A stretch of DNA of 64,000 nt. It comes from Yamagishiella unicocca. Taxonomy: Eukaryota; Chlorophyta; Chlorophyceae; Chlamydomonadales; Volvocaceae. Positions 3,315-61,600 of this stretch are shown here, one piece after another. A program made the position numbers and the translations under genes. Location of the stretch: the NCBI GenBank assembly GCA_003116995.1, contig BDSL01000067.1:186001-250000 (forward strand). The letters run 5' to 3'. The notes beneath the pieces are model-generated. The model saw only the letters and a program-made list of their open reading frames with translations, searched no databases and was not told the DNA's origin. Numbering within the stretch: position 1 is the stretch's first letter; the number at the start of each line of letters is the position of its first letter.

Positions 3315-3975
3315 CTCCGGCAAGTTTGGCTAGGCAGCCTTCAGGTCTTCAAGGGCCTTGGCTTTCAGGACTTGCACATGACAGAATAACGGCTCGCCGG
3401 CGGATACCCAGCATAGGAAAGATTTCGGCAGTGAACCGTAGCCAGGATGCACATGAGCAAGTCGTGATAGCGCACAAAGGCTACGCCGCTGCAGTATAAA
3501 TAACTCACACTACGCTTCGATACTCGTATACAAAGTATTTTACAATCCCATGTTGCAACGGCCAGCTAAGTCTCCCGGTAAGGCGTCATACTCGGCATGG
3601 GATCATACGACATATGGCATGCCACATATTATAGGACGCCACAGTCAAACTAACTTTACAGTAGGGACTTAAGTCAAACTTTCTATGCATGGCGTCCCAT
3701 AATGCATATGACGCCAATATACATGGACGGATATGCCGCAGTGCAAGCAGAACAATAGCACCAATTCTTGAAGCATAATGGAACTTATTAATCTATGAAT
3801 ATTGACTGCGGTAATGTGTGATACCGGTAGAGACGTCCTTCGAAGTAAACTTGCTTCCTTGTGGGAACTCCAAGGGGAGACATGGCTCTTGGGATACGGC
3901 CGATGATGTGCACCCAGAAAGCTCGCGTTTAATCCCCTACGCCTTGATGTCGCCGATCAAGCAGCAGAAGTTGTC

Positions 3976-5830: not shown

Positions 5831-6404
5831 TAGCCCCCCCGCCCTGCCGCTTTAGTAGTTTTCACTGGGGCCGAGTGGGCGACAGTCGGCAAGGGCTTTG
5901 ATTGTGGGGCCGGGTAAGACCCCCAAGGAAAGCATCCGCAAACGTACCCGGGCCTTCATCCGCAGCTGCGCGACTGAGCCACCCCACTGCGCTCTGAATT
6001 ATTTCGTGTTGTTAAAAAAGGTTCTCTTCTTAGAGAAGTGGAGCCGGAGGAACGCTGAAACGACATGCTTGCTGATGACATCTCGTTGAAGGAATGAGTG
6101 TAGCTCGCATCCTAACAGGATGTAATTGCGCTTATAGTCATAGAGCGGTAGCGCTCGACGATACGCCACCAAGAGTTCGATAGCCGCTGACGCGCGCCAT
6201 GCTGCAACGCAGCCATTTTTACTTCGACAGACGTTTCTACCGGTATCTCACATTACCGCAGTTGCTATTCATAAAGGAAATGTGTTCATTACAACTGTTG
6301 TTCTGCTTGCACTGCGACATATCCGTCCATGTATATTGGCGTCATATGCATTATGGGACGCCATGCATAGAAAGTTTGACTTTACAGTCCCTAATGTAAA
6401 GTTA

Positions 6405-6952: not shown

Positions 6953-7050
6953 ATGTAAAGTTAGTTTGACTGGGGCGTCCTATAATATGTGGCATGCCAT
7001 ATGTCGTATGATCCCATGCCGAGTATGACGCCTTACCGGGAGACTTAGCT

Positions 7051-7923
7051 GCCGCTACTGTGCCGCAGGTAGAGATTAAGCAGAGCTCTGAGATTAAGTG
7101 TCGTGTAAATGCCCGTGCACTTCGATGAGATGTTCATACATCGACGTGAAGGATGGCGATCATCGGAATGGATTCATGACGTCTATAACATAGTGCCTTA
7201 GTGATCTTTGTCATGTTTTGGGAGCCCATTGGCGAAGAGATGCCAAACGTCGCTACTAGGAGGACACAAACCAGAGTGCTACAGGCGATGCGAGGACACT
7301 GCGGGCGTAAGTGTGGAAAACGTAGTCTCTAGGGGTCATAAATGGTTGGAGAAAGATTTGAGGCAAAACAGTGGTTGTATCGGTGCGCTTGGATGGCATG
7401 GAGGCGGGCTGTTCGCTGTCATCCCGCCCATGTCCGAACTCTCCCCTCCTACCCAGGTCATAAAGCATCGCGATGTGGTCGGGTAAAAGAGGATAGACGC
7501 GGCGAGCCGGCATACGTCGTAGGACACAGCGCAGGGGACACCGGAGGGGTGCTGTTAGTTAGGAGGATTAGTAATACCACACGGGAGGTCATAGCGGCCC
7601 TAGCCATATCGTCATGCATCGCCGGCGCCTCTGCCGCGACTCGTCCTGACCCCCCCCCCTCATCACCAGCAGCCACCACACCGTGTTTCCTGGCTACCAC
7701 AGCCCTCCTTGAGCAGCACACCCACTTGCACGTTGTGCCGATTTCCCAGTCGCATCGGATCACCCCAGGCAAAACACAACCGTACCACCACACTCCGTTA
7801 TCGTCCCCCGGACCACATCGCCGTTCCGCTGCTGACACCAGTCTAGACCAGTACGAGTGGCCCGACCCGGCCCCAGCCCAGCCTCCTTCCCCCCGCTCCC
7901 GTTCCCACTCTCGCCGCCGTACT
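7051..7923. other. duplicated 3' flank of the exchanger pseudogene
   Basis: No gene seen. The sequence is closely similar to 20834-21691, the spacer between the intact exchanger and the intact TIR/TPR gene, including a shared ACTTCGATGAGA segment and the exchanger's 3' untranslated region. ORFs on both strands here are not conserved in frame between the two copies. Confidence 0.7.
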
Positions 7924-10875
7924 TTACATCCGCGCATCGTGTACGACAGCCGAGATGTATACTATCTGGTACACGCCGTACACCACCACCGCCAGGACGG
8001 CCACTCGCCGGGTGAGCCGGAAGCGAAACACCAGCGGCACCACCAGCGCCCACATGAGCAGGATGGTGGACGAGCAGCCGTACAGTACGCGCAGGGCCAG
8101 GTCGTGGGGCAGCTCCATGTTGCCGTGGCGGGTGGCGTAGGTCAGCGAGGTCACCAGACCTGGGGGGGCAGAGGGCAGGAGCCGGAGCCGAGGAGGATGG
8201 GAATGTTGGGGGGGAGGGTCGGCCCCTGCGCCTGCCACGCGCCGCTCCTACTGACCCAGCCAGCTGCGCGCGCAGTGCCACCCGGGGCTGCCCTCCGCCA
8301 GACGCCATCATCAACCCCCATTGGCTTCGCCGATTATTACGAACACCGTTCGCTTCTTACGGCCAGCTTCGGCTTCCAGCCGCCTTTCCTTCGTTCACCA
8401 CTTTAGCCGCTTCTCCAGCACCATTATCTCCTACAGTCTACGCTACCTTTACCTTCACTGTCCGTTTCAGCAGCGCTTCACCTCCGTATATTCGCCGATG
8501 ATCGTTTTTTGGACTACCGTCCTCATCGCCCTTGGTTTGCCGGCCGTGGATTCGCAGTTTTATTGTATGCCCCCTGCAGCCCGCCCTCCCCCCTACCCTT
8601 GCATCCACGCTCCCTCCCTACCTGCCAGCAGCACGAACAGCGGGCTGGCGAAGCAGGCGGTGATGGCCATGGAGGGCAGGCCGTCCTGTTGGGGGTGGGG
8701 GCGGAAATGGTGGCCAGGGCGACGGGATCAGAAATAGGGAGCAGCGAGTCAGGCAGCGGAGGTAGGGTCCTGGTCCTCCGCCTCCCCCCCTCCCCCCCTG
8801 TCGCCCCCGCACCCTGGCCAGTGTGATGTTTGAGACCAGGTCGCTGACGCTGTTGCCCCAGGCCAGCAGGGTGGCCCCCAGCAGGCTGGGGCTGATGCCG
8901 TAGATCTGGCCCAGAGCCACCGCAGCAGACACCAGCTCCCCCGCCGAGGCGTCCAGCAGGAACATGGCCTCGCAAAACACAACCACGGTCGCGATACCTG
9001 AGGGGCGGGGGTGAGGGGGAGAGCGGCGGGCGGGTGGGGCGAGTATGTTAAATCCGCGAATCCACGGCCGACAAACCAAAGGGTGATGAAGATGGTGGTC
9101 CAAGAAGATAAAGCTGGCGAGTAAGGGGGGGGGGGGTTAAATTATAACGGAGGGGGAGTAGAGGGTGGGGGGGGAGTTGTACGGTGACCGCGGCCCAGCA
9201 CCCTCCTTCAGCACCCCGGGCCCCCCTTCCGCTCCCCCCTCCCTCCGCTCCACCCTCCCTCCGCCCCTCCCCCATTCCTCCGCCGCCCCCACCTGCCGCG
9301 TAGCCGTGCAGGTGGCCCTTGCGCGGGTAGTACCTCACAGCACACAGCGCCACCAGCAGGCCCGCGGCGGTGGACAGCCGCCACCAGGGCTGCCGCCATA
9401 GGGCCCCCGAGGGGCCGTCCAGCCAGCCCTGGGACCAGGCCACCAGCGTGGGCAGCAGCGGCGGCAGCAGCACCGCGAACGTCTTGCGGTAGCGGGCGTG
9501 AGTGTCGATGGCCACCTGCACGCGGGGAGGCACACCCGAGGGGGGGGGAGGGAGCAGCCCCGAGGGGGGGGGGCAAAAGAATCGGTAACTCGACTTGGGA
9601 ATTGTATCGACCTGCACCCCCGTCCTGCTCTATCAGCTCCGGTACTTATCAGCTAGGGTACCCGGCCGACCAGCGGGTCGCCACCAGGCCGCTCCACCAA
9701 GACCTGCTGAACCACCAACGACCAACCACCCGAGTACAACGACCATAACTTAGCCAGCGCCTTCATTCCCTTTCCAGCAGCCCAGCCCACTAGCAAGCCC
9801 TGAGTCGTGCCCCCAACCCAAGCCCCCAAACCCCTCCCTTCCACTGCCCTCCCTTCCACCCCCCTTAGCCTCCCGCCAGCCCCGCCGTCCCGACTCCCCC
9901 TTTCCGCCCGCACCACCCACCCGCGGCACGAACACCGACAGCAGCGCCAGCCCCGGCCGCTCCAGCCGCCTCCACATCCGCTCCATCCTCCCCGGCGGCT
10001 TCCCGCTGCCAGCCCGCCGAGTCGAGGGCGCCCGCTCCATGCTCCGCCGGCCGTAGCTGCCGCTCCCAGCAAGACCCCAGCACAAGCTGCCGCCGGCCTC
10101 CGAGTCCGCCGCCTGGCCGCCCAGGACCGGACCCCCGCTGGACGTCCGGCCGTTGAAGAACGTGAAGGCAGATGGCGGCAGGTGCGGCGGGCTGCTGTGG
10201 CCGTTGGAAGTTGCGGAGGGGCGGGCGGTGGCGGTTAGGACGACGGCGGGGGCGGGGGGCGCGAGGGTCGGGCTCCTGCGCTGGTGGCGCTCCTCCTCCT
10301 CCTCCCCTCCTTCTTCTTCGTCGCCGCCTTCCTCCTCTCCTTCTTCGTCGCCGCTGCCGCGGGCGGTGGCTGCCTCGTCTATGCGCTCCAGGGTGGGGAT
10401 GTGACGGCAGCAGGGGGGCATCCAGGGCGTCGTCGGAGCCGATGGAGATGGCGTCCGTGACACGACGGAAGCTCTCTGGGGGCGAGGAGGGGGGCAGGGG
10501 ACGGAGGGGGGCTCAGGGGAGGGGGCCAGGGAGGGATGGCGCAGGCAGGGAGGGGAATGGCAGGACGTGTGTTAGGGAGGTGGAGGGCTGCTTCTCTACC
10601 CCCTCCCTCCCCCCACCTCCCGTGAAGCTGTCTCTCTACCCCCTCCCCGCCCCACCTCCCACGGGTTTCCTCCCCCCCCCCACCTCTCATGTCTTCCTCG
10701 AACCCACCTCTCATGCAGCTGTCCGCCGGCATGAGTCGGCCAGCATGAGTCGGTGCGGCACCTCGTGCAGCCGGGGGTCGGCGTACACGGGCTCGTCCCC
10801 GCGACTGAGCAGCACCGTGGCCACGATGAAGGCCACGTAGTAGGCGGCAAGCAGCGCCACCTCCCACACCATGAC
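7924..10875 (-). pseudogene. 5'-truncated cation/Ca exchanger copy (block A)
   Basis: Equivalent to exons 5-10 of the intact exchanger at 21692-27418. The exons are 10875-10708, 10475-9921, 9515-9293, 8997-8813, 8685-8622 and 8159-7924. The last four have exactly the same lengths as in the intact copy, including the alpha-2 exon with GNSVSD. Exons 1-4, with the N-terminal Cys-rich segment and the alpha-1 repeat GNGAPD, are absent. Exon 5 carries a 14-bp tandem duplication near 10729-10756 that causes a TGA at 10711-10713. Exon 6 carries a 1-bp insertion near 10399 plus 12 in-frame bases. It cannot make a working exchanger, since both alpha repeats are needed for transport. Confidence 0.88.
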
Positions 10876-11639: not shown

Positions 11640-12062
11640 ATGACCACGACAACCAGCCTTTCTCACGGAAACTACCACATGGGAGGTCATAGCGGCTCTC
11701 GCCATATCATTGTATGCAGCGCCGGCACCTCGGCCGTGACTCGTCCAGAACCCCGCCGCCCCTCATCACCAGCAACTACCGCAACTGCCACATCCACCCG
11801 ATGCCGCATGCGACCAGGGGGGCTTTCCACCACCTCCCACCCCTTCAGCACCTCCTAACCCCCCCACCACCTCCCGCCCCTCCACCCTTCCCCACCCTTC
11901 CGCCCCTCTGCCCCCCTCCCGCGCCCCCCTGCATCCCATGCAGTTCTGCCCCCCATCCCGCCGGCCCCCCCTTGTATCCACACTCCCTTCCCACCTGCCA
12001 GCAACACAAACGGCAGGCTGACGAAGCAGGCGGTGATGGGCATGGAGGCCGTCATGGAGGGG
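11640..12062 (-). pseudogene. third, fragmentary copy of the exchanger 3' end
   Basis: 12000-12055 matches exon 9 on the minus strand (MPITACFVSLPFVLLAG followed by a GT donor) but has a small deletion near its start that breaks the frame. 11640-11760 matches the 3' flank found at 7560-7700 and 21360-21420. The sequence for the last exon, which should lie between them, is missing. The fragment implies a further round of local duplication and deletion. Confidence 0.65.
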
Positions 12063-12554
12063 TGGGGGGGAGCAGGGATGCGGTGCTGGCCAGCACCCTC
12101 CCTATGGCAAAAAATGTCGGCTACCCCTCGGTTTGGCAAATCCAACCCAACCGACCGGGCGCCTACTCCCTGCATAACCCCCCATCCACTATCCCCCCGG
12201 GGGTTACTCCCCGGTGGGTTACCCAACCAGTACGCAGACCACCCGAGGGTTCGTTGGACCCCATCGCCCCTTAGGTTGATTAACCCCCCCTTCCTTACTA
12301 ATCTGTAACCCCTCTGTTGGGTCAGCCCTCCGTAACCAAACCCCTCCGATATGTGACCCCATGCTAACCCCATGCAAAGCTATCCCAACACCAGGATACC
12401 ATAGGCTCATAACAGACCTGATCTCACAGGCATTGCAATCTCCAGTCTCGCCACCTACAGCAGCCATGTGCACCCCTCTATGCAGCCTACAGCAGCCTCG
12501 TGCACCCCAACAACAACACTGCTTTCTCTACATCTGCTTGGAACGCTTGCGTGG
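12063..12554. other. 3' flank of the TIR/TPR gene, nothing recognised
   Basis: No ORF with support and no clear minus-strand TGTAA poly(A) signal were seen. The segment is rich in CCAACC/GGTTACCC-like short words. Confidence 0.4.
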
Positions 12555-15500
12555 CTACACAGTGTCGTGCGCAGTTGGGTTCAATGGCAGGCCCTCCTGC
12601 TCCTGCGCGGGCCGCCTTGCTGTGCCTCCTGCTTGCTGCTTCCTGCCCTCCAGCACCCGCCTGTACAGTGGTTCCGCCTCATCCAGCTTGCCTTGATCCT
12701 TGAACAGGCCAGCCAGGTTGTTAACTGACACGAGTGTCTCGGGGTGGTCGGCACCCAGCACTCGCTCCCTGCCCTCTAGCGCCCGCCTGTACAGCGGTTC
12801 AGCCTCATCTAGCCGTCCATGCAGTTGGCTGAGCCGTGCAGCTAAGTACAGCTTATCAGCCATGTCATCTGTCCATTTGGACTCCGCAGGCGGCACCTGT
12901 GCCACCGCTCCTGCGACCAGGGCGTCCTTGAGGCGCTGGGTCAAGATGTTTAGGTCACCCAAGTCAGTTCGCATGTCGGCCAGAATGCGGACCCGATCGC
13001 TCTCCTCAGTGGCCTGAGCACTATCGACGTCCAAACCAATGAAGACCTGTTGGGGAGGAAGGGATGGTGCAGGAGTTTAAACAGGTGAATGGTGTAAAAA
13101 CACATTGGTTGCAAACCTGGATCAGGGTAGGGTATCCGTACATCCATTACCTGACCGTTCCGTCGGCACTAAGTTTCAACCCAAACGCATTTTGGGTTTC
13201 GGCATGTACGCTGGCCGGGGGTGGGATCTCTCCCCCTTCTCCCTCTCCCTAGCCTCTCCCAGCCCTCTTTCTCTCTCCCCCTTCTCCCCCCTCCTCCCCT
13301 CTCCCTCGCGCCCTTCCTGCTGGCCACGGGCTATCCTCTCCGGGTTGTCCCGCCACTTTCCCCGCCTCCCTCTAGGCAACCCAAATTCTCTGGCATGCAT
13401 GTGCTCAAATGCGTTCGCGAATGTCTTGCCAGCTAATTCCTGCCCTCTGTTTCCTATGTCATGTAACCGTGTCATCTTGCCAATCCCTCCCTCTTCCCCC
13501 CCTCCCTCTTCCCTACTTCCCCCCTCCATCTCCCCTCTCATTCCCACTCTGTCCCTCCCCCTCCCTCACCCCCTCTCTTCTCCCCTTCCCCCGCCTCGCT
13601 CTCTCCCTCTCCAAATAGCCTACTTGTTGGACATGTCAAGCATAGTGTGCGTCCTCTTGCCCCTCTCCTTCCGTCCAGCACCCCTCCCCACGACCCCCCC
13701 TTGCCATTAAGGTGGTAGCAGTGGCAACCCCTTCGTCGCACGCCCTCCACCCCCGCCTTCCTATGCCACATGCCCGACTCCCCCCCTAGCCCCTGCCACA
13801 CCCCCAACACCACTGTGCCCGTACCGACCTCCTCGACCTTCTTGAAGTCTAGTCCGTAGGACAGCACCATCAGCTTCTTCCCCGCCTTGATGCTCTGCCA
13901 CGCCTCGTACAGGCACCAGATGCGGGTGAGCAAGGCACCTGCTGGGTCCAGGACCATGAGGGTCTCCTGCGCGTCGTGGACCGCCTCCCACAGCGCCGCC
14001 AAATCGTCCGTGTTCTGACTGCCCTTGTGCTGGTTCTGGGAGGACAGCGAGCAGGAAAGGCAGGTGCGGGAGGGTGGTTGGACCCCAGCATGGCCATTAC
14101 TTCCGTTGATACTGGTTGGCAGGACACTGCGACCACAACATTTTCTAATCCCAGATCCACATGCTACCCACAATGTGTGCAACAACAACTCCGGGACTTG
14201 CATGCGCACATGCTTCAACGGGACTTATATTGCTGTACGGCACAGATCGTCATTACTCACCACTGCAAAGATGTCGAACCACACAAACACCTCGCTGGCA
14301 GCCAGGAGCGACAGCGGCTGGCCATCCTCCTGCCACCACGCCTTCTGCCGCTCATGCTCCCAGTGCTTAGCCACCATGTCCAACGTCTCCGCAAAGGGCC
14401 GCGACCAGGTGTGGCTGATGAAGAAGAACGGCTGCCCCTGGGACACAGCGCCTTGATGCTCCTGCGGAATCACACCTGTGTAGCGGCACTGGGTGTCATC
14501 TGTTGCCGGCTTGATGATCTGCTCAACCATCTCTTCCGAAGTCATGCTGAGCTCATGAATCCGGTTGTCCTTGACAAACCACTGCAGCCAGGTTAAGGAC
14601 ACCGCGGCCTGCGAACAAACAGAGGGCGGGGGCGGGTGGGGGTAGTATTTGTGGCCAGTTCTGTGTTTCAGGTTTCCCCTGATGCATCATCCAACTCCTA
14701 CAGTGTACTGCCGCTCAGCCACTACCTGGCGCCTCTTTAGCAGCTCCCCCATGTCCCCTGTGGATGTGGTAGGGCCGGCCAGAGTAGCTGCCTGGGGTAC
14801 GTACCAACGTCACCCTCTTGCATGGCTGATGAGCACCGAGCCGAGTTCCTCAACTCAAAGTGAAACCGTATGCACCAGGACTGGTCCAGCCGCGAGCTAT
14901 GTAGGGACCCATTACACAGACCCTAAACACGACCATACCTGAATGAATGGCCCAATCATAGGGGCGGCCCTGTTCCTTTATAGGCATACCGTCCTAGCTG
15001 TGCAAGGGCCCTTACCTTCGAGATGTGCGTGGCATCGCGGTCCATCACGCTGCTCTTGCCGCCACTGAGCACTCGTGCCCTGCCCTCCAGCACCCGCCTG
15101 TACAGTGGTTCCACTGCAGCCAGCTTGCCCTGAGCCTTGAACAGGCCAGCCAGGTTGTTAACTGACGCGAGTGTCTCGGGGTGGTTGGCACCCAGCATTA
15201 GCTCCCTGCCCTCCAGTGCCCGCATGTACAGTGGTTCCGCTGCAGCCAGCTTGCCCTGATCCTTGAACAAGCCAGCCAGGTTGCTGACTGTTGTGAGTGT
15301 GTTTGGGTGGTATGCACCCAGCACTCGCTGCCTGCCCTCCAGCGCCCGCCTGTACAGTGGTTCCGCCTCAGCCAGCTTGCCCTGAGCCTGGAACAGGCCA
15401 GCCAAGTTGTTAACTGACACGAGTATCTCGGGGTGGTCTGCACCCAGCACTCGCTCCCTGCCCTCCAGCGCCCGCCTGCAAAGTGGTTCCGCCTCATCCA

Positions 15501-18500
15501 GCTTGCCCTGAGCCTTGAACAGGCCAGCCAGGTTGTTAACTGATGTGAGTGTGTCTGGGTGGTCTGCCCCCAGCACTCGCTGCCTGCCCTCCAGCGCCCG
15601 CCTGTACAGTGGTTCCGCCTCAGCCAGCTTGCCCTGAGCCTCAAACAGGCCAGCCAGGTTGTCAAATGACATGAGTGTCTCAGGGTGGTCGGCACCCCGC
15701 ACTCGCTCCCTGCCCTTCAGCGCCCGCCTGTACAGTGGTTCTGCCTCAGCCAACTTGCCCTGATCTTCGAACAGGCCAGCCAGGTTGGTAACTGACACGA
15801 GTGTCTCGGGGTGGTCTGCACCCAGCACTCGCTCCCTGCCCTCCAGCGCCCGCCTGCAAAGTGGTTCCGTCACAGCCAGCTTGCCCTGAGCCTTGAACAG
15901 GCCAGCCAGGTTGTTAACTGACATGAGTGTCTCAGGGTGGTCTGCACCCAGCATTAGCTCTCTGCCCTCCAGCGCCCGCCTGTACAGTCGTTCCGCCGCA
16001 GCCAGCTTGCCCTGAGCCTTGAACAGGCCGGCCAGGTTGTTGACTGATGCGAGTGTGTCGGGGTGGTCTGCACCCAGCATTCGCTCTCTGCCCTCCAGTG
16101 CCCGCCTGTACAGCGGTTCTGCCACAGCCAGCCGCCCATACAGTAGGCTGAGGCGTGCAGCTATGTCAAGCTCACGGGCCATCTCATCCGTCCATTCGGA
16201 CTCCACAGGTGGCACCTGTGCCACCGCTCCTGCGACCAGGGCCTCCTTGAGGCGGTGGTTCATGAGGTTCAAGTCGCCAACGTCGGATTGAATGTCGGCC
16301 AGAATGCGGACCCGGTCGCTCTCCACATTGACCTTAGCACTGCGAACATCCAAATCAATAAAGACCTGGGGTTGAGGAGAGGAAGGGAATGTTCCGGAGG
16401 TAAGCTGCAAGTGATCTTGATTACAGTACGGTGTATCCGTATGTCCACTACCCTGACCTTTCCATTAGCACTGCCTTCACACAACAACTGCATTCTGGGT
16501 TCCGATCCCCTCTTATCGGTCGTTTTTTCGCAATCCCCCGCTCTGCGTTCCCCCTACCCCCCTCTCTCCCTCTACCCCCCTCCTCCCGGCCTCCCGTCTG
16601 CCTGCTTTGCTCCCTGTCCCGCATCTTCACGCCCCGTATTTCCTCACTTTATCCTTCCCCTCTGCAGGACGCCATCGTACACCGCCGTACGCGCCTCCCC
16701 GTATATCCATCCTCCCCTTCCATGCCTCCGCCTCTTTCGCCGCGCCGCTGGGGCCTCTTCATTGTTTTGACCCCTGTATTCCCGCTCCCCTCCTAGATGT
16801 TTTTTCTCACGCCCTCTGCTGTCCCTTGCCCGCATGCTTCGCGTCGACCGCCTTCCCCACCCGCTCTGGGCCCTGGCCAGGTGAGTTCCGCCGCTGGGGT
16901 GGGCTTCTGTTCTGGTAGTTTTCGCTAGTCGTTGCACTCTTGTCTGCGGGCGTCAGGACCTGCGTCTAGGCTTTCGCGTCCCCCATGGCTTCGCGGTGCG
17001 GCTTTGGCCTCCTCTCCTGGACGACCGCGGACCTCCTCCGGTAATGACCGGCTTTCTCACGCATCTGGTCGGTATTCGGGCGGGTCGGGACTGGGACTCC
17101 GACTAGGACTGGGACTGGACCGCGATGGCCGCTCTCCCATAGCGCAACAACTCCCACAGCTTTCCTGCTAGCGCCCAAAACCGATTCTGCGAAAACTCTA
17201 CGTGCGTCGCGTGGGGTCCTCGCTTCTTTTCGTCTCGCCGTAGCCGCTATAGTTTGGACGCTAAAGGTCATATTTCGACCTTCAGCTTTAGTATCCCCAA
17301 CCCAGTTCTCGAGCATGCATCTCAAAACTTCTGTCTCAAACGGTTTTTCGGACATCCACGGGTTTCCCTCGAACCTCCCTCCTCTCCCTCTCTCCCCCCC
17401 ACTCTTCCTCGCTGGGTTGGGCCCCTGTTTTGGTGTTTTTTGCTAGTCGTTGCACTCTTGCCTGCGGGCGTCAGGACCTGCGTCTAGGCTTTCGCGTCCC
17501 CCATGGCGGCGCGGCGCGGCTTCGGCCTCCTACCATGGACGACAACGGACCGTCTCTGGTAATGACCGGCTTCCTCACGACGTCCGCAACCATCTGGTCG
17601 GTATTCGGGCGTGTCGGGACCGGGATCGGGACCGAACCTCGCTGTCCGCTCTCCCATAGCTCACCACCTCCCCCAGTTCTCCTGCTAGAGCCCAAAACCG
17701 GTTCTGCGAAACGTTTCCGTGCGTCGTGCGGGGTAATCACTTCATGTCGTCTCGTTGTAGCCGCTTTAGCTTAGCCGCCCAAGGTCGTATTACGACCTTC
17801 AGCTTTAGTATCCCCAACCCAGTTCTCCAGCGTGTATCTCAAAACGTCTATCCTAAACGGTTTTTCGGGCATCCACGGGTCTTCCTTGAATCCTCCCTCC
17901 CTCTACCCCCCCACTCCCCCCCCTCCCTCTCCCTCCCTCCCTCTCCCTCCCTCCCTCCCTCTCCCTCCCTCCCTCCCTCTCCCTCCCTCCCTCCCTCTCC
18001 CTCCCTCCCTCCCTCTCCCCCCCTCCCTCCCTCTCCCCCCCTCCCTCCCTCTCCCCCCTCCCTCCTTCTCCCCCCTTCCTCCCTCTCCCCCCTTCCTCCC
18101 TCTCCCCCCTTCCTCCCTCTCCCCCCCTTCCTCCCTCTCCCCCCCTCCCTCCCACTTCCCCCCTCCTTCCTCCTCTCCCCCTCCCTCCCTCTCCCCCCCT
18201 CCCTCCCTCTCCCCCCCTCCCTCCCTCTCCCCCCTCCCTCCCTCCTCCTCTCTCCCTCCCTCCCTCTCCCCCCCTCTCTCCCTCTCCCCCCTTCCTCCCT
18301 CTCCCCCTCCCTCTCCCCCCTCCCTCCCTCTCCCCCCTCCCTCCCTCTCCCCCCTCCCTCCCTCTCCCCCCTCCCTCCCTCTCCCCCCCTCCCTCCCTCT
18401 CCCCCCCTCCCTCCCTCTCCCCCCTCCCTCCCTCTCCCATCCGCGCGCCCCGCTGTACTCCTTCCCGCCGTACCCGGCTGCCCTTATCTAGCCGGACGCC

Positions 18501-20584: not shown

Positions 20585-21691
20585 CTCCGGCAAGCTTGGC
20601 TAGGCAGCCTTCAGGTTTTCATGGGTCTTGGCTTTCAGGACTTGCACCTGACAGAATAAAGGCTCTCCGGCGGATACCCAGCCTAGGAAAGATCTCCGCA
20701 GTGAACCATAGCCAGGATGCACATGAAGATGTCGTGATAGCGCACAAACCCTACGCCGCTGCAGTATAAATAACCCACACGACGCTTCGATACTCGTATA
20801 CAAAGTACTTTACAATCCCGCTTTGCAACGGCCGCTACTATGCCGCAGGTAGAGATTAGGTGACGTGCAAATGCCCGTGCACTTCGATGAGACGTTCATC
20901 AGCGTTCATACATCGAAGCGAAGGATGGCGATCATCGGAATGGATTCATGACGTCCATAACATTAGTGCCTTAATAATGTTTGTCATTTTTTTGGAGCTC
21001 ATTGGCAAAGAGATGCCAAACGTCGCTACTAGGAGGACACATACCAGAGTGGTGTTGGCGATGCGAGGACACAGCGGGCGTAAGTGTCGAAAACGTAGTC
21101 TCTAGGAGTCATAAATGGTTGGAGAAAGATTTGAGGCAAAACAGTGGTTGTATCGGTGCGCTTGGTCGGGCATGGAGGCGGGCTGTTCGCTATCATCCCG
21201 CCCATCTCCGACCTCTCCCCTCCTACCCAGGTCAGAAAGCATCGCGATGTGGTCGGATAAAAGAGGATAGACGCGGCGAGCCGGCGTACATCGTACGAGG
21301 GCACAGCGCAGGGGACACCTGAGGGGTGGTATAAAAAAGATTAGTAATACCACAGTAGCGGCCCTCGCCATATCGTCATGCAGCACCGGCGCCTCTGCCG
21401 CGACTCGTCCTGACCCCCCTCGTCACCAGCAACCACTACACCTGTTTCCTGGCTACCACAGCCCTCCTTGAGCAGCACACCCACTTGCACGTTGTGCCGA
21501 CTTCCCAGTCCCAGCCGCGTGTATCGGATCACCCAGGCAAAACACAACCTTACCACCACACTGCGACCACGTCCCCCGGACAACATCGCCATTCCGCTGC
21601 CGACACCAGTCTCAACCAGTCCGAGTGGCCCGACCCGGCCCCAGCCCGGCCTCAAATTCCCCCCCGCTCCCGCTCCCACTCCCGCCATACT
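20585..21691. other. spacer between exchanger 3' end and TIR/TPR start
   Basis: Both flanking genes read on the minus strand, so this holds the exchanger's 3' UTR and the TIR/TPR promoter. A minus-strand TGTAA at 20814-20810 could be the exchanger's poly(A) signal (about 880 nt after its stop) but is weak evidence. The spacer is conserved in block A, where the transposon landed at the site equivalent to 20831-20833. Confidence 0.5.
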
Positions 21692-24600
21692 TCACATCCG
21701 CGCGTCGTGTACGACAGCCGAGATGTATACTATCTGGTACACGCCGTACACCGCCACCGCCAGGACGGCCACCCGCCGGGTGAGTCGGAAGCGAAACACC
21801 AGCGGCACCACCAGCGCCCACATGAGCAGGATGGTGGACGAGCAGCCGTACAGTACACGCAGGGCCAGGTCGTGGGGCAGCTCCATGTTGCCGTGGCGGG
21901 TGGCGTAGGTCAGCGAGGTCACCAGACCTGGGGGGGCAGAGGGCAGGAGCCGGAGCCGAGGAGGATGGGAATGTTGGGGGGGAGGGTCGGCCCCTGCGCC
22001 TGCCACGCGCCGCTCCTACCGACCCAGCCAGCTGCGCGCGCAGTGCCACCCGGGGCTGCCCTCCGCCAGACGCCATCATCAACCCCCATTGGCTTCGCCA
22101 ATTATTTCGACCATCGTTCACTTCTTACGGCCAGCTTCTGCGTCCAGCCGCCTTTCCTTCGTTCACCACTTTAGCCGCTTCTCCAGCACCATTATCTCCT
22201 ACAGGCTACGTTACCTTTACTTTCCGTTTCAGCAGCGCTTCCCCTCCGTTTATTCGCCGATGACCGCTTTCTGGACTACCGTCCTCATCGCCCTTGGTTT
22301 GTCGCCCATGGATTCGCAGTTTAATTGTATGCCCCCTGCAGCCCGCCTTCCCCGCCTACCCCTGCATCCACGCTCCCTCCCTACCTGCCAGCAGCACGAA
22401 CAACGGGCTGGCGAAGCAGGCGGTGATGGCCATGGAGGGCAGGCCGTCCTGGAGGGGGGTTTCGAGGAAGACCCGTGGATGCGAAGAAACCGTTTAGAAC
22501 AGATGTTTTGAGATGCCGTCCTTTTGCGGGGGTTGCCAAGGTCAGAATCCAAGGATCGGAAGTAGGAAGCAGCGAGTCAGGCAGCGGAGGTAGGGTCCTG
22601 GTCCTCCGCCTCCCCCCCTCCCCCTCTGTCGCCCCCGCACCCTGGCCAGTGTGATGTTTGAGACCAGGTCGCTGACGCTGTTGCCCCAGGCCAGCAGGGT
22701 GGCCCCCAGCAGGCTGGGGCTGATGCCGTAGATCTGGCCCAGAGCCACAGCAGCAGACACCAGCTCCCCCGCCGAGGCGTCCAGCAGGAACATGGCCTCG
22801 CAAAACACAACCACGGTCGCGACACCTGAGGAGTGGGGGGAGGGGGAGAGCGGCGGGTGGGCTGGGGGGGGGGTATACAGTATCCGCGAATCCACGGCCG
22901 ACGAACCAAAGGGTGATGACGTTGGTGGTCCAAGTAGATAAAGCTGGCGAGTAGAGTGTATGTGTGTGGGGGTGGGATTATAACGGGGGGAGTAGAGGGT
23001 GGGGGGTGGAGTTGTACGGCGACCGCGGCCCAGCACCCTCCTTCATCCCCCCGCTCCCGCCTCCCTCCGCCCCTCCCCCTCCATCCGCCGCCCCCACCTG
23101 CCGCGTAGCCGTGCAGGTGGCCCTTGCGCGGGTAGTACCTCACGGCACACAGCGCCACCAGCACACCCGCAGCGGTGGACAGCCGCCACCAGGGCTGCCG
23201 CCATAGGGCCCCCGAGGGGCCGTCCAGCCAGCCCTGGGACCAGGCCACCAGCGTGGGCAGCAGCGGCGGCAGCAGCACCGCGAACGTCTTGCGGTAGCGG
23301 GCGTGGGTGTCGATGGCCACCTGCGCGCGGGGAGGCACACCCGAGGGGGGGGGGAGGGGGGGGCAGCCCCGGGGGTTACATGAAAGGACCGGTAACTCGA
23401 CTTGGGAATTGTATCGACCTGCACCCCCCCTGCTCTGTCAGCTCCGGTACCTATCAGCTAGGGTACCCGGCCGACCAGCGGGTCGCCACCTGGCCGCTCC
23501 ACCAAGACCTGCTGAACCTCCAACGACCAACCACCCGAGTACAACGACCCTAACTTAGCCAGCGCCTTCATTCCCTTTCCAGCGGCCCAGCCCACTAGCA
23601 AGCCCTGAGTCGTGCCCCCAACCCAAGCCCCCAAACCCCTCCCTTCCACTGCCCTCCCTTCCACCCCCCTTAGCCTCCCGCCAGCCCCGCCGTCCCGACT
23701 CCCCCTTTCCGCCCGCACCACCCACCCGCGGCACGAACACCGACAGCAGCGCCAGCCCCGGCCGCTCCAGCCGCCTCCACATCCGCTCCATCCTCCCCGG
23801 CGGCTTCCCGCTGCCAGCCCGCCGAGTCGAGGGCGCCCGCTCCATGCTCCGCCGGCCGTAGCTGCCGCTCCCAGCAAGACCCCAGCACAAGCTGCCGCCG
23901 GCCTCCGAGTCCGCCGCCTGGCCGCCCAGGACCGGACCCCCGCTGGACGTCCGGCCGTTGAAGAACGTGAAGGCAGATGGCGGCAGGTGCGGCGGGCTGC
24001 TGTGGCCGTTGGAAGTTGCGGAGGGGCGGGCGGTGGCGGTTAGGACGACGGCGGGGGCGGGGGGCGCGAGGGTCGGGCTCCTGCGCTGGTGGCGCTCCTC
24101 CTCCCCTCCTTCTTCGTCGCCGCCTTCCTCCTCTCCTTCGTCGCCGCTGCCGCGGGCGGTGGCTGCCTCGTCTATGCGCTCCAGGGTGGGGTGCGACGGC
24201 AGCAGCGGGGCATCCAGGGCGTCGTCGGAGCCGATGGAGGTGGCGTCCGTGACACGACGGAAGCTCTCTGGGGGCGAGGAGGGGGGCAGGGGACGGAGGG
24301 GGGCTCAGGGGAGGGGGCCAGGGAGGGATGGGGCAGGCAGGGAGGGGAACGGCAGGACGTGTGTTAGGGAGGTGGAGGGCTGCTTCGCTAACCCTCTCCC
24401 CCCACCTCTCATGTAGCTGTCCGCCGGCATGAGGCGGTGCGGCACCTCGTGCAGCCGGGGGTCGGCGTACACGGGCTCGTCCCCGCGACTGAGCAGCACC
24501 GTGGCCACGATGAAGGCCACGTAGTAGGCGGCAAGCAGGGCCACCTCCCACACCATGACCTGGAAGGAAGGTACAGGAAATAATTGGTAACTCGACATGG

Positions 24601-46682: not shown

Positions 46683-49600
46683 GCGGTCCGCGTCGGTGCG
46701 AAGCACACTAGCGCAGCTGCACGCGGCTGTGGTGGAGGCCAACCGTAAGGGTGTGGCGCGGGCGGCGAGGGAGCTGCAGACGGCGGCTGCGAAGGCGGCG
46801 ATGACTCCGGAGCCGGCGGTGATGCAGTGGCTGTCTTCGGAGTGGGCGCAGCGCAATGTGAAGGAGGCGGGGGCGGACGAGGCGACGACGCTGGCGGGAG
46901 TGCTGAAGGAGGCAGCGGGGCAGTGCAGGTCGGCGGAGGCGGCGCTGCTGGCGGAGGTGGTTTCGGAGCTGCGGTGCTGCGCCTGGCACGCCGCCGCGGT
47001 GCTGTTCGACCTCGAGGTGCTGGAGGAGCTGGCGCGGGTGCAGCTGTGAGCGGCGGGGGGGCGGGGCGAGAGGGCAGTTGGCGGTTGGGAGTTTGGAGTG
47101 GGGCAGTTGGGAGTGGAATGGTGCGGCTCGCTGGGCGGGGGATGGGGTGGCGGCGCGAGAGCGAACGAGCGAGCGAGTGGTGGCGGTGGTGGGGCCGCGG
47201 TGCGAGTGGCATCAGCGCCGGCCCCCTCCCTAGCCCCCAGGACCACATGCACCGAACAGCCGACCGGGTGGCCTCCTGGCTGCCATCACAGCATCACACA
47301 CGCGGCGGCTGTCCCCCCTTCTCTCTCTATTTCTTTTCCTTCACACAGTTCCCACAGGCCGCCTCCGCAAGTTTGCCGGTAGTCAGTCCCAGTGCTCCAG
47401 CATGCGCCCACAAAATCGGCGCCCGACGACCATGCGGCAACTGTCCTGTCCCGTCGCGGCAACGGTTTACACCCCCCCCTGCACGGGTCTTCCTCGAACC
47501 CCCCCCCGCACCCGCAGGCCGGGCTGGATGAAGTGGACCTGGGAGGCGCTCTGCAGCTCCGAAACCCCGTCCGTGCCGCTGCTGCAGTACCTCCTGGAGA
47601 AGGGCGGCGAGGGGGCGTGGGCGGTGGCGCGAGCCGCCCTGGGCCGCAACCAGAGCATCGTTCGGACTGCGTCCATGTGAGCCGCACTTGCTGGGGGCTT
47701 GGGAGGGCGAGGCGGGGCGAGAAGACCCGGTTACACGACATAGGAGACGGAGGACCGGAAGCTAGCTGGCGATCAGTTTGGGTGGCGAGGGATGGCATGT
47801 AGCGAGGGTACCTGGCGCATGTAAGCGGGGGGGGGAGAGGGGAGGAGACGTTTATCGCCAGATAGTTTTTCGCCACATAGCATACGCTCCTGCGGGCCTG
47901 CAATTGCTCCCCTCCGCTCGCCACCATGCCCCCGACAACCTCTGATCACCCTACTACCCTACCCGTCTCTACGGGTTTTCCCTCAACCCTACCCGTCTCT
48001 ACGGGTTTTCCCGCAAACCTACCTCAAACCTACCCGTCTCTACGGGTTTTCCCTCAACCCTACCCGTCTTACTCCCCTCCCTGCCCTGCTCCCGGCCCCC
48101 GCCCTGCTGGCTTCCGGGTACCATCCGCCCCCCTTTTCGTGCTCAGGAACCCTGCCATTTGGGCGCTTCAAAAGCGCGCCCCCGCCTCGCTGGTGGTGCA
48201 GCTGGCGTCGGTCGCCGCCCCGCTGCGCCGCGACCGGCCGCTGGAGGTGGAGGACGGCTCCAGCGCCATCGGGTGGGCGCTCCGGACGGCGAGGATGGAC
48301 GTGCTGCCGGAGGTAAGCCGCGTGAGCCGCGCAGAGCGTACGACAGCCGCGCGCCTGGGTGGCGGAAAAAGGGGGAGCGCGCGTGGGAATCCGACCACAC
48401 CCTGGCCAACCACCCTTGGCCAACCACTCCGGCCGACCCAGATCCCGGGTGTTGGCCTCCCGTGGTGGCGGCGTCGGCTTGGTGGCGGTGCCGACGATGA
48501 CGGTCGTGCGACCCCCTGCCCCCCCCCCAGCTGCTGCGCTTCACCGACCCACGGGTCGCAGCCGTGGACGGCCTGCCGCCGCTGCACTACGCGGCTTCCC
48601 AGGGCGACGCGGCGGCTACTAGGTTGCTGCTGGACGAGCGAGCCCGCTGGTGGAGGGCTCACGACACCACGATGGAGGAGGTGGTGTCCCAAGTGTGTGG
48701 AGGACTGAACCCGCTGTACAGGTGGGCGGGTGGGCGGGTGGGCGGGTTCGAGGAGGACCCGTGGATGCCAGAAAAAATCGTTTAGAACAGACGTTTTGAG
48801 GTGCATGTTGGAGAACTGGGTTGGGATACGAAAGCCGAAGGTCGTAAGTTGACCTTCGGCGGCTAAGCTAAATCGGCCACGGCGAGACGACATGAAGCGA
48901 GGACCCCGCGGGTGGGTGGGTGGGGCGTCCGGCGGGAGACGCCGCCGGCGTCCGAACCGCCCAACTGGTGCGCTCTCGATCAAGGAAAGACAGACAGACC
49001 CGTGGGTCAAGGTTATGTACCTCGCTCAATGTGGCGACGGGTTAAGGGGAAGTCAGGAGATGAGTTCCGCGTGGTGGTGTCGGGCCCGACTAACCGAAGC
49101 GGTTGGGACGAGTGCCGCCGGATACCGGTATGGATCAGGCGCTGGTGAAGGTACAGAACCCCGGGTCTTCTCGGCACCTCACCCCCGCTCCCCCAGGGCC
49201 GTGGAGGGCGGTCACCTGGACGTCACTCGGCTGCTGCTGGCTGCGGGAGCTCAGCCGCTGGAGGCGAACCAGGACGAGCGCGGCTTCAAGGACACGCCGG
49301 TCCACATGGCCGTCTTCTTGAAGCGTGCGGACCTGTTGGAGCTGCTGCTGGGGAGGCGGGGGGCCGCGGGGAAGACGGTGGGTGGTCGAGCGAGCGCAAC
49401 CAGGGGCGGTGCTGTGGGTGGCTTCCGGGGGTGAAACCCATATCCGGAGGGGGGTGCTTGCATCAGGGAAGGGAAGGGAAAGGAGTGGGGTGAGACGGAA
49501 AGCGTGATTGGATTGGGCCGGGTCGGGTGTCGTCTGTGGGGGGTTGCGGGCGATGGGTGGTCGAAGGGAAGGTGGCGGGAGAGGCACCCCGCCGGCGCCA

Positions 49601-52600: not shown

Positions 52601-55600
52601 CCCCTTCCCCTCCACCCCTCCCTCCACCCCTGCCTCCACCCCTCCTTCCACCCCTCCCCCCAGGCTCTCTCCGACCTGGCCGCCTCCTCCCCCTCGGGCG
52701 CCGCCGGGCCGCCCTGGCTCTCCACCCCCCTGGTGGCGCTGCTGCTGCTGCAGTGCCGTGAGACGGGCGGGGCGGACTGGCGGGCGGGGGACGCAGCACA
52801 CTGGCGCGGACCCAAAGACACGGCGCCGCTGCCGCGGCTGGCGGTGTGGGGCATCATTTCCGGGGCCGTGGTCGGCACCACCCCCCCGCAGGGAGCCATG
52901 CCGTCGTCACTGACCCCCACGCTGCTGCGCGAGCTGCTGCAGCGAGGGGTGGCTTCTCCCGACGAGCGGGCGCCTCCCGGGGGCACTGGGCAGGCGCAGC
53001 TGCTGGAGGGGAGCACGCTGCTGCACAAGGTCCGGAAGGGGAGGGGGAGGTCCGGGCGTTGAGGGTTTTAGGGGTTTTAGGGTTTGGGGGTTTGGGGGGA
53101 AGGGGAGTGGGGGCGTGGGTAGCCGGAGGTGCAGCGGTTGTAGTGATGTGTCGATGACGGTGTCTGGGAAGTGGGCGGCGTCCTGAAGCTAACCACCAAT
53201 ACATGCGAGGTTGCGGGCTGGAGCTCTTTTTCGTGGTCAGGCGCCTCAGGCATATCGTATTGTGGTGTGTTTTCTCATCGCCGGCCGTCGTACTCTCTGT
53301 CTGCATCACGGACCCACCGCGCCTAGCTGCCGCCATCGGTTCGTTTGATGCACCTTTACCGCCCCTTTGCAGTAAACCCAAAGCCCCTCACTCCCACCCC
53401 CCTCACTCCCACCCCCCTCACTCCACCCCCCTCACCCCACCCCCCTCACTCCACCCCCCCTCACCCCACCCCCTCACCCCACCCCCCTCACTCCATCCCC
53501 CTCACCCCAACCCCCTCACCCCAGCCCCCTCACCCCACCCCCCTCACCGCACCCCCCCTCACTCCACCCCCCTCACCCCACCCCCCTCACCCCAACCCCC
53601 TCACCCCACCCCCCTCACCCCACCCCCCTTACCCCACCCCCCCTCACTCCCCCAACGTGCACTGACACGCCCAGGTGTGCTTCACTGGCGACGTGGCGCT
53701 TCTGGAGGTGCTGCTGGCGGCGGGGGCGGACATCAGCGCCACAGACGAAGCCGCAAACACGCCGCTTCACGTTGCCGCTGCCAGACCGCACCGGGAGGAG
53801 GTGGCCAGCCAGCTGCTGCGAACGCTGCTGCGCAGGACGGCGCCGGCGGCTACGCCCAAGTCGGCACCAAAACCGCAACAGCAGCCGCAGGAGCAGCAGG
53901 AGCAGCAGGAGCAGGAGGAGCAGCAGAAGGCGACGGCGGAGGAGTTACAGGCGGAGGTGAAGGCCGAGAGGGCCAGGGGGGCGGCGCTGGCGGCTCGCAA
54001 CAGGGCGGGGCTGCGGCCGGCGGACGTGGTGTCGAGTAAGAAGGTCCGGAAGCTGTTCGACCAGCTGCATGAAGAAATGTCTAGGTGGGTGTCTGGGTGG
54101 GGGGGGGGTGATTGCGGGGGGAGGGGGGGGGGAGGGGGAGGAATGGAGCTCCGTTTGCGGGCAGAGGGGTGCGTGCCGGTATGTCGTTGTTGCAACGACC
54201 GAGAGTGGTTGGGACGAGAGAAGCAGAGAACTCGTGCGCAAGGCATGGGGCCGGGGAGGAGGGATCGATAATGGCGTCAGACACACACGATGCGGACCCC
54301 TCCCGCCCTTGGTTTGTCGGTTTGTCGGATTCGCGGCTCATCTTTGACCTCCCCCGCCCTCGGGTCTTCCCCGAAACCCCCTCCCCCTCGGTTTTAAACG
54401 TTTTTTTCGGACATCCACGGGTTTCCCTCGAACCCCCCTCGGTTTGTCGGCCATGGATTCGCGGATTCTCTTCTCAACCCCCCCCCCCCCCCCCGACGCA
54501 TGCAAGCACATATGATGCGCCCCGCCCCACCCTGCCTCGCTTGCTGTTTTCCCTGCGCAGCGCCCTAGACCGCGCGGTGAAGAGCCTCGACAAGTTTCTG
54601 AATCCGTCCGAGGCTGCCAAGAAGGCTGGCGGCAAGGAGGCGGCTCAGGCAGCTGGCGCTGCCGGCGAAGGCGCCGCCAAGCGCAAGGCGGCGGCAGCGG
54701 CGGTCGCCGCCCCCGCCGCCGCCGACGGTCCCCGACAGATCCGTACCGTTGCTGACCTGGCTGACGACGAGGCGCTACGTGGCATGGGTCTGGCGCAGCT
54801 GGTGGCGGTTCCGGAGCCGCTGGTGCTGCCGCTGGCCTCCAAGCTGGTCAAGGTTAGTGGGGTGAGGGCCAGCTAGCCAGCAGGGCCAGCCAGCCAGCAG
54901 GGCCAGCCAGCCAGCAGGGCCAGCCAGCCAGCAGGGCCATGGTGGTGTCTCCGCCTCTTGATCAGCTGGAGGCCGTGCCTCTGCCGCCCGTAAGGCGGAG
55001 CCAAAGACACCTGACATTCCCGTGTGTTTCGGTTTATTAATATGTGCCCCGGTATTCCGTACCGGTATGCAGGTCCCATTCGCCTTCAGCGAACACCTCC
55101 GCCCCATACGGGCGCCATCCCCATCCCCCCCAAGTTACGCTTCCCATGTCGAGTAACCGGTTATTTCCTGTACCCCCACCCCCGCAGCTCCTGCCGGCTG
55201 GCTGCATGCGAGTGGCCGCCCCCGCCGCCGGCGCCGCCGCTCCCGCCGCCGACACCGACGCCGCCAACGCGGCCACCAACCAGGAGCTGCGGCGCATCGT
55301 GCAGGAGATGCGGGTGGACGGCGGAGGGGAGGGGGACGAGGAGGGGGCCGGAGGGGGTGAGTGAGGGTTCGAGGGAAACCCGTGGATGTCCGAAAAAAAT
55401 CTTTTAAAACAGAAGTTTTGAGATGCATGCTGGAGAACTGGGTTGGGGTTGGGTGAGTGAGGGGGGGGGGGCTGCTGCTACCCTACCGATGAAGCGGTAG
55501 CTGGCTGGCTGCTGGTTGCTTCGGCCTTGCTCATCGCACCCCCATGCGTCTCACACACCTCCCTCACACCTGTGACTCCTCTCTCTCACCCCCCGCTAAC

Positions 55601-58600: not shown

Positions 58601-61600
58601 GCCTCCCCCTCCCCCTCCCCTTCCCCTCCGACAGGTTGACTTCCCCTTCAAGCTCTCCCCCGAGGAGTACGACCTCATCAAGCTGGCGCCCAACCCGCCC
58701 TCCTCCATCATCCTGCTGGGCCGCTCCGGAACCGGCAAGACCACCTGCGCCGTGTACCGCCTGTGGGGCAACTGGCTGCGCCACCACACCAACCCCGCCC
58801 TCGACCCCGTCCACGCGCTCTTCGTCACCGCGTCCGCCACGCTGCGCGAGCGCGTGGCTCGTGCCTTCCGGCGGCTGCAGAGCGCCGTGCTCCCCCCCGA
58901 CCAGTTCGCACGCGTGTGCGCCGCAGCCAACGCCACCTACCACACGCTGCGCGACGTGCCCTCCGAGGCCTTCCCGCTCTTCCTGTCCAGCCGGGTCTAC
59001 CTGCGCATGCTGGACGGCAACACGGCGAGGCCCTTCTTCCCGCGCCAGCCCAACGGCGCGATTCTGCAGGTGGGGACGGCGGGCGGCGGCGTTGCGGGTG
59101 CTTGGTGTCGAGGCGTTTGAGACGCCTTGTCCATGCGCTGCTTTGTCCATGACGTGTCTTCCCCCTTAATACGCCCAGTAAATAATCGGGGATTCCATGA
59201 TTTCTTGAGATTGTCGAGTGTATGTGTTCGGTGTGGTCTTATAACCACGTCTAAGACGTCTAGACGTGGTTCTAGGTGAGCCGGGAGGGCGGGGGCGGAT
59301 GGCATCACGACCGGGTGTGTGTGCGTATCGGACCTAGCCGGAAGTAAGCCTACAGCCACCACCACCCACCCCCCCACCCCCCACGGGCATCCACGGGTCT
59401 TCCTCGCATGCATGCATCTCAAAACTTCTGTTTTAAACGTTTTTTCGGACATCCACGGGTTTCCCTCGAACCCCCCCCACAACCCCACGCCTCCCCCCCC
59501 CAGCTACCCGACGATGGCGAGGAGCTGGACCCGGACGGCGCGGCGCTGGTTGTGGCCATGGACGAGGACGCCAGCGACGAGGAGGAGGAGGAGCCGGAGG
59601 CGCAGCGGGGGGGCCAGCCGCGGGGGGCCGCGAGTGGGGACCCGGCGGCGGGCGGGCGAGACGGCAAGGAGGGGGGCGAGGAGGGCCAGGGGGCAGACGG
59701 CGGCGTGGTGGCGCTGGAGGAGGAGGTCCAGGCGGCGGCCGCGGCGGCGGCGATGGCGGCGGCGCGGGCACCCGCCATGCAGGATCTGGATGGCGGCGGC
59801 GGCGGCGACGGCGGAGGAGGGCTGGAGTTGGGTGGCGCGGAAGATGGCTACGGTCTGGGCGTGGCGGGCCGGGCTCGGCTCAACCGGGAAGTGACGTACC
59901 AGTACTTCGTCAGCAGCATGTGGAAGAGGATCACGAGTGGGTGCCCGGGCGGGGGAGGGGTGTTGCAGGGTTTTAGGGTTTTGGAGGAAAGGGGTTTCGG
60001 AGGTAAGGGGTTTCGGGGGAAGGCGCTCGGGGCGGAGATCTTTAGGCGGGTAACCGGGGTTATGAGGAGAACCTGGTGGCCCGGGGGGAAGAGAGAGGAC
60101 CCGGTAACACGACATAGGAGACGGCTGGCGGGGGTGGGGGTGGGGTTCGAGGAAGACCCGTGGATGCCCGGAAAAAACGTTTAAACCCGTGGGGGTGGGG
60201 GTTATAAGTAAAAAACCGGTAACTCGACTGGAGTAATGGGGTGGGGACTGGGGTGGGGAGCCGAGCACGGGGAGCTGGGATGTCTTGAAGGTAGGGGTGG
60301 GAACGTCTTTGGGAGAGGGGTTTGGCGCTTTCAGGCAAAGCCGTTTCGCGGCACTTGCACCTAGAGCACCCCCTCCCCCCATGCGGCTTTCTCTTTCGTA
60401 CACGGGTTTTCTTTGCAACCCCCCCCCCCAAACCCCCCATACGCTCTGTTGCCCACCTCGCATGTGCGCGCGCCCGATGCCGCACCTCCCAACCTGTCGG
60501 CCCCCCTCCTTCCCCCCCTCCCCTGCCAGCTATTACACCTACGTCGTGTAACCGGCCTGTACGCCACGCGCCTCTGCCCACGCGCCTCTGCCCCCCTTGC
60601 AGCCCCCGAGCAGCGCGACTCGGTGGCTCCCGGCCTGGTGTACCAGGAGATCATGAGCTACCTGAAGGGCAGCGCGGAGGCCATCGCCAGGTGCGTGCGC
60701 GCAGGGGGGGGGGCCGCCAGGGAGCATGGGGCCAGACCTCCCTGGCCCCGCCCCTCCTCCCTCCCTCCTCCCTCCCTTCCTTCCTCTACCGCACCCTGGC
60801 CTCCAGGAAGAGGAGGAATGTGCGCCGGGCATACGCTGTCGCGTTCGCTCCCTCCTTGCATGATCTACCTGTGCAGCTCGCCCGCGCTATGCTGTGGTCG
60901 TTCGTTCCTATGCCGCGCTGCCAGAGCCCGCCCACGCGCTCACCGCCCCTGCCGTACCGCCCTGCCGCTGTTCGTTCGTACGTCCAGCGCACGCAGCAAG
61001 TCCAGTACCCGCCGCCGCGCCGCCTCCATTCCACCGTATTGTCCACCGCCATTTAATTGCGCGCCGGTCTCCTCTTCTGGAAGAAAAGGATTATAAAAAC
61101 GTCTCCTAACCCCCAAGCTTCCCACCCCCCTCGCCCGCCCCCTCGCCCGCCCCCTCGCCCGGCCCCTCGCCCGGCCCCCGCAGCCCCACGGGTCACCTGA
61201 GCCGCCAGGGCTACCTTTCACTCGGCAAGAAGCGAGCAGCCAACTTCGGCGAGGAGCTGCGGGAGAAGCTCGTGTGGCCCATATTTGAAAAGTGCGTGAG
61301 CGAGCGCGCCGCTGTGCTGTGCTGTGCTGCTGCGGTGCTGTGCTGTGCTGCTGCACGATACCGTGGTAGCGGCGGCGTTGCAACCACATACCGGTACCAC
61401 GCAACGAATTCATTCGTCCCATAACAGAAATGTGATGTAACGGACTGCATGCAACGCCTAGCAGCGGACTTAAGTCACTGCGAAGCAGATATTCAATTAT
61501 CGTTATAATAATCATTACCGGTGTTTCTAAAGACAGGCGTCTTCTTGCTCGCTTGCACTGCTGGCTGACCCTGCCGCAGGTACGAGAGGCTGAAGCGCCA

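Follow-up and report, generated by a model that had tools for sequence, protein, structure and literature searches.

A C-tailed element fragment at the splice acceptor of a green algal exchanger intron, probably derived from a non-autonomous retroelement

The duplicated exchanger gene and its filled and empty sites

The window, the whole 64-kb stretch of DNA analysed here, carries a Na/Ca-exchanger-like gene on the minus strand (20852-24421, block B) that was duplicated from or with a second block at 7090-10632 (block A). The exon 8 region was found in these two copies only in the searched genome. Over their aligned positions the duplicates share 94.4% identity; they differ by 5.0% outside the insert region and also include patches of complete identity. 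Read along the minus strand, exon 8 closes with ...SNITLAR in both blocks (at 22641 in B and 8813 in A), and exon 9 starts at 22448 in B and 8685 in A with the same opening 17-residue peptide. The joined exon 8/9 peptide matches the Pfam family Na_Ca_ex (E 2.6e-17), and a stretch of 22 residues is identical in A and B. The intervening intron 8, its insert and the related features of the window are collected in Table 1. Elsewhere on the minus strand, positions 14956-16464 hold a 502-codon stop-to-stop frame, most of which consists of 126-bp repeats with the translation LYRRALEGRERVLGADHPDTL...NNLAGLFKAQGK; we take these to resemble repeats of the kinesin-light-chain TPR type. Two pairs of inverted repeats were also observed, one with arms at 3563-3660 and 6954-7051 (99% complementary, ~3.3 kb apart) and the other at 3671-3758 and 6295-6382.

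Table 1. Positions in the window of intron 8, its insert and target duplication, and further copies of the element family
Feature	Position	Strand	Description and basis
Intron 8, block B	22449..22640	-	192 nt, GTGCGG...CTCCAG; splicing predicted from sequence
Intron 8, block A (paralogous, empty site)	8686..8812	-	127 nt
5′-truncated element copy	22451..22514	- (sense)	64 bp, from ATCTCAAAACATCTG... to the C-rich 3′ tail ...CGAAACCCCCCTCC; A/B alignment and family matches
Exon-side copy of target duplication	22443..22450	-	AGGACGGC on minus strand: acceptor AG and first 6 nt of exon 9
Intron-side copy of target duplication	22515..22522	-	carries the old acceptor AG, now AAAAG
Single target copy, block A	8680..8687	-	AGGACGGC on minus strand; no insert
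Intron flank upstream of old acceptor	22523..22557	-	strongly diverged from A; A/B alignment
Decayed third exon-9 fragment (C)	11947..12068	-	no recognisable element upstream
Two longer family copies in tandem	16683..17900	+	3′ ends at ~17379 and ~17897
Family copy	47482..47505	+	coding-supported acceptor 49 nt past the tail
Family copy, antisense to a likely gene	55365..55448	-	coding-supported donor at 8 nt from the tail
Family copy	59410..59477	+	coding-supported acceptor 25 nt past the tail

The earlier note had described a 64-bp insert in intron 8 of the exchanger, flanked on both sides by GCCGTCCT, with one GCCGTCCT and no insert in the paralogous intron of block A, and alignment of the two blocks bears out both its coordinates and its reading of the splice sites. 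The duplication in B is perfect and the two copies are separated by exactly 64 bp. As had also been claimed, the target includes the AG|GAC acceptor of exon 9, the C-rich end of the insert occupies the position of the pyrimidine tract, and the protein is unchanged, in that the reading frame is intact and the exon 8/9 peptide is the same in both blocks.

The exon-side AG|GACGGC is now preceded by the element's CCCCCCTCC, and the old AG sits 72 nt upstream of the new acceptor. In translation, splicing to the upstream AG in B would give DGISKHLF and then a stop codon; keeping the protein therefore requires the downstream AG. The exon junction of B would run from ...AGG to GACGGCCTG with the new acceptor, or to GACGGCATCTC with the upstream AG. 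An acceptor position matrix scored the new AG at 3.7, the old AG at 2.6 and the acceptor of A at 8.1, a crude scale that separates new from old poorly and is not trustworthy, having been built on 40 training sites of which 22 carry A or G at -3. Judged from the sequence, the insert appears to have given intron 8 a new ending without altering the protein: a pyrimidine tract would come from the element tail, and a second AG from the duplication. In this pair of filled and empty sites, a mobile element would have taken over a working intron end and left the reading frame unchanged.

The polarity of the event is supported by the sequence as an insertion in B, on account of the perfect duplication, the known family end at the junction and the element-free fragment C. 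No recognisable element was found upstream of this third exon-9 fragment, which is itself decayed. The opposite course, in which the insert is ancestral and A either lost it precisely or was converted by an empty allele, gains some room from the patches of complete A/B identity, which make conversion possible, but it is improbable, as the exact loss of 64 bp together with one copy of the duplication is unlikely and fragment C, though decayed, likewise has no element at the site. The same patches suggest conversion and thereby leave the earlier dating of the insertion, after the segmental duplication, likely but short of proven.

The intron flank just upstream of the old acceptor, a point absent from the earlier note, also differs between A and B, with 20 of 40 aligned positions identical in a 60-column window from 22504, compared with 94.4% overall. 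In this alignment the B flank has diverged more than one clean insertion would allow. It may hold an older and by now worn copy of the sister tail CCTTGCAACCCCC, a weakly supported reading: the score in the flank was reached by 1 of 5000 shuffles and equalled at 27 of 123 AACCCCC places in a 264-kb sample (the 64-kb window and 200 kb sampled elsewhere). The flanks of A and C look alike by eye, a likeness no stronger than in shuffled sequence, of which 405 in 1000 attain the same score.

A C-tailed family with ragged 5′ ends

Searching the 64 bp against the window revealed numerous relatives in both orientations. When read in the sense orientation, these have a common end, ...CATCCACGGGTCTTCCTCGAACCCC or a TTTCCC variant followed by further C, and their 5′ ends stop at various points; the 3′ end of the family follows the pattern ...ACGGGTNTTCCTNG(N)AACCCC. 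In the 133-Mb genome, exact counts for two 25-mers from the 3′ end are 383 and 632, compared with 0 for the reversed control, and the sister tail GTACACGGGTTTTCCTTGCAACCCC occurs 99 times. A hand-made tail consensus of 164 nt gave 41 matches in the 264 kb at E <= 0.01, of which 39 reach to within 12 nt of its 3′ end. The 3′-end-reaching copies number 27 in the 64-kb window, the focal copy included, and 12 in the 200-kb sample, so that the family is several-fold denser in the window (17218-63822) than in the sample. One hundred copies were examined individually, having been picked by an exact 3′ 25-mer (60 of the first 78 listed places for one 25-mer and 40 of the first 45 for the other). Their length to the end of CCCC is 25 bp at the shortest and at least 225 bp at the longest, with a median of 58 and seven copies reaching the edge of the stretch. 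A common 3′ end with variable 5′ truncation, a trait of non-LTR retroelements, is thus seen both in the 39 of 41 consensus matches and in the 100 copies.

Target duplications were scored in 93 of the 100 copies, those with a 5′ end that could be located inside the retrieved sequence and at least 18 nt from its edge. Flanking duplications of at least 8 bp, including at least 3 non-C letters, were found in 42 of the 93, compared with 2.3% of mismatched flank pairs; the other 51 lump together decay, ambiguity in C-rich sequence and wrongly placed 5′ ends. With an optional leading A included in the count, 36 of the 42 duplications open with a C run three or more letters long, so tail and target have a C run in common, and the remainder after this run measures 6-11 nt in 35 copies. 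At the exchanger site in present-day B, the duplication is preceded by AAA rather than by a C run. The genome search and scoring called for in the earlier note thus recovered many copies bearing target duplications, and the 8-bp length that it reported holds at the exchanger site but not as a constant of the family, in which duplications of 6-17 bp were found. Variable length is again a non-LTR trait. A common 3′ end, 5′ truncation and target duplications form the pattern of target-primed reverse transcription, for which the usual tail is A; here it is C.

A perfect 8-bp duplication, as at the focal site, is also what hAT or P elements leave, and it speaks for a short non-autonomous, MITE-like DNA transposon. 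Such elements have terminal inverted repeats and duplications of fixed length, but the copies here share one end and are ragged at the other, inspection of the 64 bp by eye showed no terminal inverted repeat, and the duplications of 6-17 bp have their C run in common with the tail, which makes this origin highly improbable.

A long form of the family, at locus L096 (775-3656), measures ~2.9 kb and consists of two 840-bp direct repeats, 99.4% alike, around ~1.2 kb. By eye, it is flanked by a duplication of TCCGGT and a C run. A tRNA match lies between this copy and a U6 snRNA match ~435 bp downstream of it (L096:4091-4191). A second long copy, L098, is 5′-truncated, starts within the internal part and is flanked by a 14-letter duplication, ACCCTACACCATCC, found by eye ~11 nt from the start of the BLAST match. 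The direct repeats of L096 would suit an origin of the insert as the solo end of an LTR-type element, yet this is hardly to be believed: LTR derivatives have precise-ended terminal repeats without 5′ truncation, but short, ragged, 5′-truncated and C-tailed pieces predominate among the 100 copies, L098 starts in the internal part and still seems to keep its target duplication, and three reading frames of L096 gave no Pfam match at E <= 0.1.

Terminal repeats of the Penelope type would also fit those of L096. Penelope-like elements with tandem pseudo-LTRs resemble the family in their direct terminal repeats and 5′ truncation, but differ in that no coding domain or hammerhead ribozyme was found in the loci tested here. 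Rfam gave no hammerhead at E <= 5 in four loci, in which its tRNA and U6 matches all lay outside the element, and a simple motif scan found none in L096-L098 or the window. Since the three frames of L096 have no Pfam match, the family machinery is probably supplied by some other element. Among the matches listed, inspection by eye found no reverse transcriptase place within 10 kb of a family place. Two reverse transcriptase loci, L091 and L093, presumably resemble LTR-type integrase elements by their motif and have no family-type tail in the stretch examined; a third, L092, has no long frame in that orientation.

Proximity of the tails to splice sites

Splice sites were called where coding sequence supported them, with a codon model that had trained itself on 102 segments from the 264-kb sample. 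On this basis, 36 of the 100 copies (22 at a stricter coding threshold) have a splice site no more than 50 nt away from the C tail, and one of the 80 copies with enough upstream sequence has one close to the 5′ side. Acceptors and donors are equally frequent, with 19 copies each and two having both. The copies of window and sample gave 12 of 39 on the tail side and 0 of 39 on the 5′ side, counts that include the focal copy and overlap with the training sequence.

Random noncoding places have a splice site within 50 nt in 324 of 7246 cases, whereas noncoding C tracts, among which the family's own tails were left in, have one in 205 of 1494 cases at >=4 C, 103 of 518 at >=5 C and 49 of 206 at >=6 C. 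The proximity of such tracts is almost all 3′, with 7, 2 and 0 cases on the 5′ side for the three classes, respectively. The tails are therefore ~8-fold closer to splice sites than random noncoding DNA in terms of frequency, and ~1.5 to 1.8 times as often close as tracts of >=5 or >=6 C (p 0.03 against the latter). At up to 15 nt, the 10 of 100 elements do not differ from tracts of >=6 C (21 of 206, p 1) or >=5 C (33 of 518, p 0.2), and differ from those of >=4 C only (59 of 1494, p 0.009). Because noncoding C tracts show similar exon proximity, the choice of C tracts as targets accounts for most of the proximity of the family, and perhaps for all of it.

Some of the flanking exons can be related to known proteins. 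Ten flanking exon peptides compared with Pfam gave four matches at E <= 1, three of which are sensible (LOV/PAS, EF-Tu domain 2 and KBP_C), all of them falling slightly or clearly short of the curated cut-offs. These exons fit eIF5B at locus L068, a LOV domain at L039 and KIF-1-binding protein at L081, and the first two are backed by matches to solved structures.

One copy comparable with the exchanger case is L132, in which the duplication CCCCCCAGGCCG spans a likely CAG|GCC acceptor in the same geometry, CCCCCCAG|GCCG. Its exon score of 4.4 is under the main threshold of 5, and the flanking exon peptide has no Pfam match; this copy probably underwent the same rebuilding of the acceptor. Among the 45 copies with a duplication of at least 7 bp, a candidate junction (score at least 3) lies inside or touches the duplication in seven. 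Five of these junctions are donors, most clearly at L039 and L123, and two are acceptors, one within the duplication at L132 and one a single base past it at L068. An acceptor at the main threshold lies within 12 nt of the tail in 3 of the 100 copies. The exchanger copy thus stands at the extreme of a distribution and calls for no special device.

Proposed origin and relation to known systems

The insert is likely, at a probability of about 0.8, to be a 3′ scrap of a C-tailed, non-autonomous and non-LTR-like retroelement that rebuilt the acceptor, a reading drawn from sequence comparison. Briefly, the enzyme of an autonomous retroelement would nick the DNA beside a G run, with C on the opposite strand, where the C tail of the element RNA could pair and reverse transcription begin. 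Early stopping would give the 5′ truncation, and joining of the second strand the duplicated target. In this genome, exon-adjacent C tracts run into the exon on one strand, so that tails would often come to lie against exons, in sense at acceptors and antisense at donors. At the exchanger, the duplicated target would have spanned AG|GACGGC, with the exon-side copy keeping the AG and the exon; the element tail would have replaced the pyrimidine tract and stranded the old AG in a longer intron, and the mRNA should be unchanged. We infer the RNA intermediate, the nicking enzyme and the use of the new acceptor.

Of the known systems, non-LTR retrotransposons (LINEs and SINEs) share with the family 5′ truncation, a common 3′ end, a tail, variable duplications and letters common to tail and target. 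The pol III promoter of SINEs derives from tRNA, 7SL or 5S; in the four loci scanned with Rfam, the tRNA and U6 matches fall outside the element. The family differs from them in having C rather than A in tail and target, and in its long copy L096, which has 840-bp direct repeats and no coding domain found.

The earlier note had likened the insert to introner-type elements, that is, intron-making mobile elements that place their own splice sites, with this copy caught in the act. The family is indeed short, abundant and near splice sites, and its target duplication at the exchanger contains the acceptor; according to the survey by Gozashti et al. (2022, PMC9860276), introners are likewise short, numerous and beside splice sites, and can derive one splice site from the duplication. 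Introners are, however, introns created by the insertion itself when it enters an exon, and the same survey (PMC9860276) states that its pipeline leaves out most secondary insertions that fall in introns already present. The focal insertion hit the edge of an existing intron and created none. For the exchanger copy the likening is refuted, as intron 8 is present in block A even though the insert is missing there, and an old intron was lengthened. Introner copies would moreover be similar up to both splice boundaries, but those of this family are 5′-truncated scraps, the 64 bp included, with ragged 5′ ends and splice sites on the tail side almost only, acceptors and donors equally often. An introner origin is accordingly very improbable, and the case separates the making of an intron from the rebuilding of an intron's end.

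More doubtful than the retroelement reading itself is the idea that the family is pre-adapted to the edges of introns, perhaps as a half-way stage to introners, in that its tail can serve as pyrimidine tract and its duplication can hold AG or GT. If this unlikely proposal were true, insertions that are harmful for other elements would be spliced silently and the family would build up on intron edges; introns would grow from the edge, and competing old acceptors would remain. With more than 1000 exact 3′ ends in the genome, it can be asked how often insertions at intron edges survive by means of their own pyrimidine tract. As a separate observation, tail pieces stand in tandem at L070 (and also at G000:C6:1498089-1498493 and C62:413411-413679); at L070 they come with what is apparently the target duplication, as would be expected if minisatellites started from short insertions.
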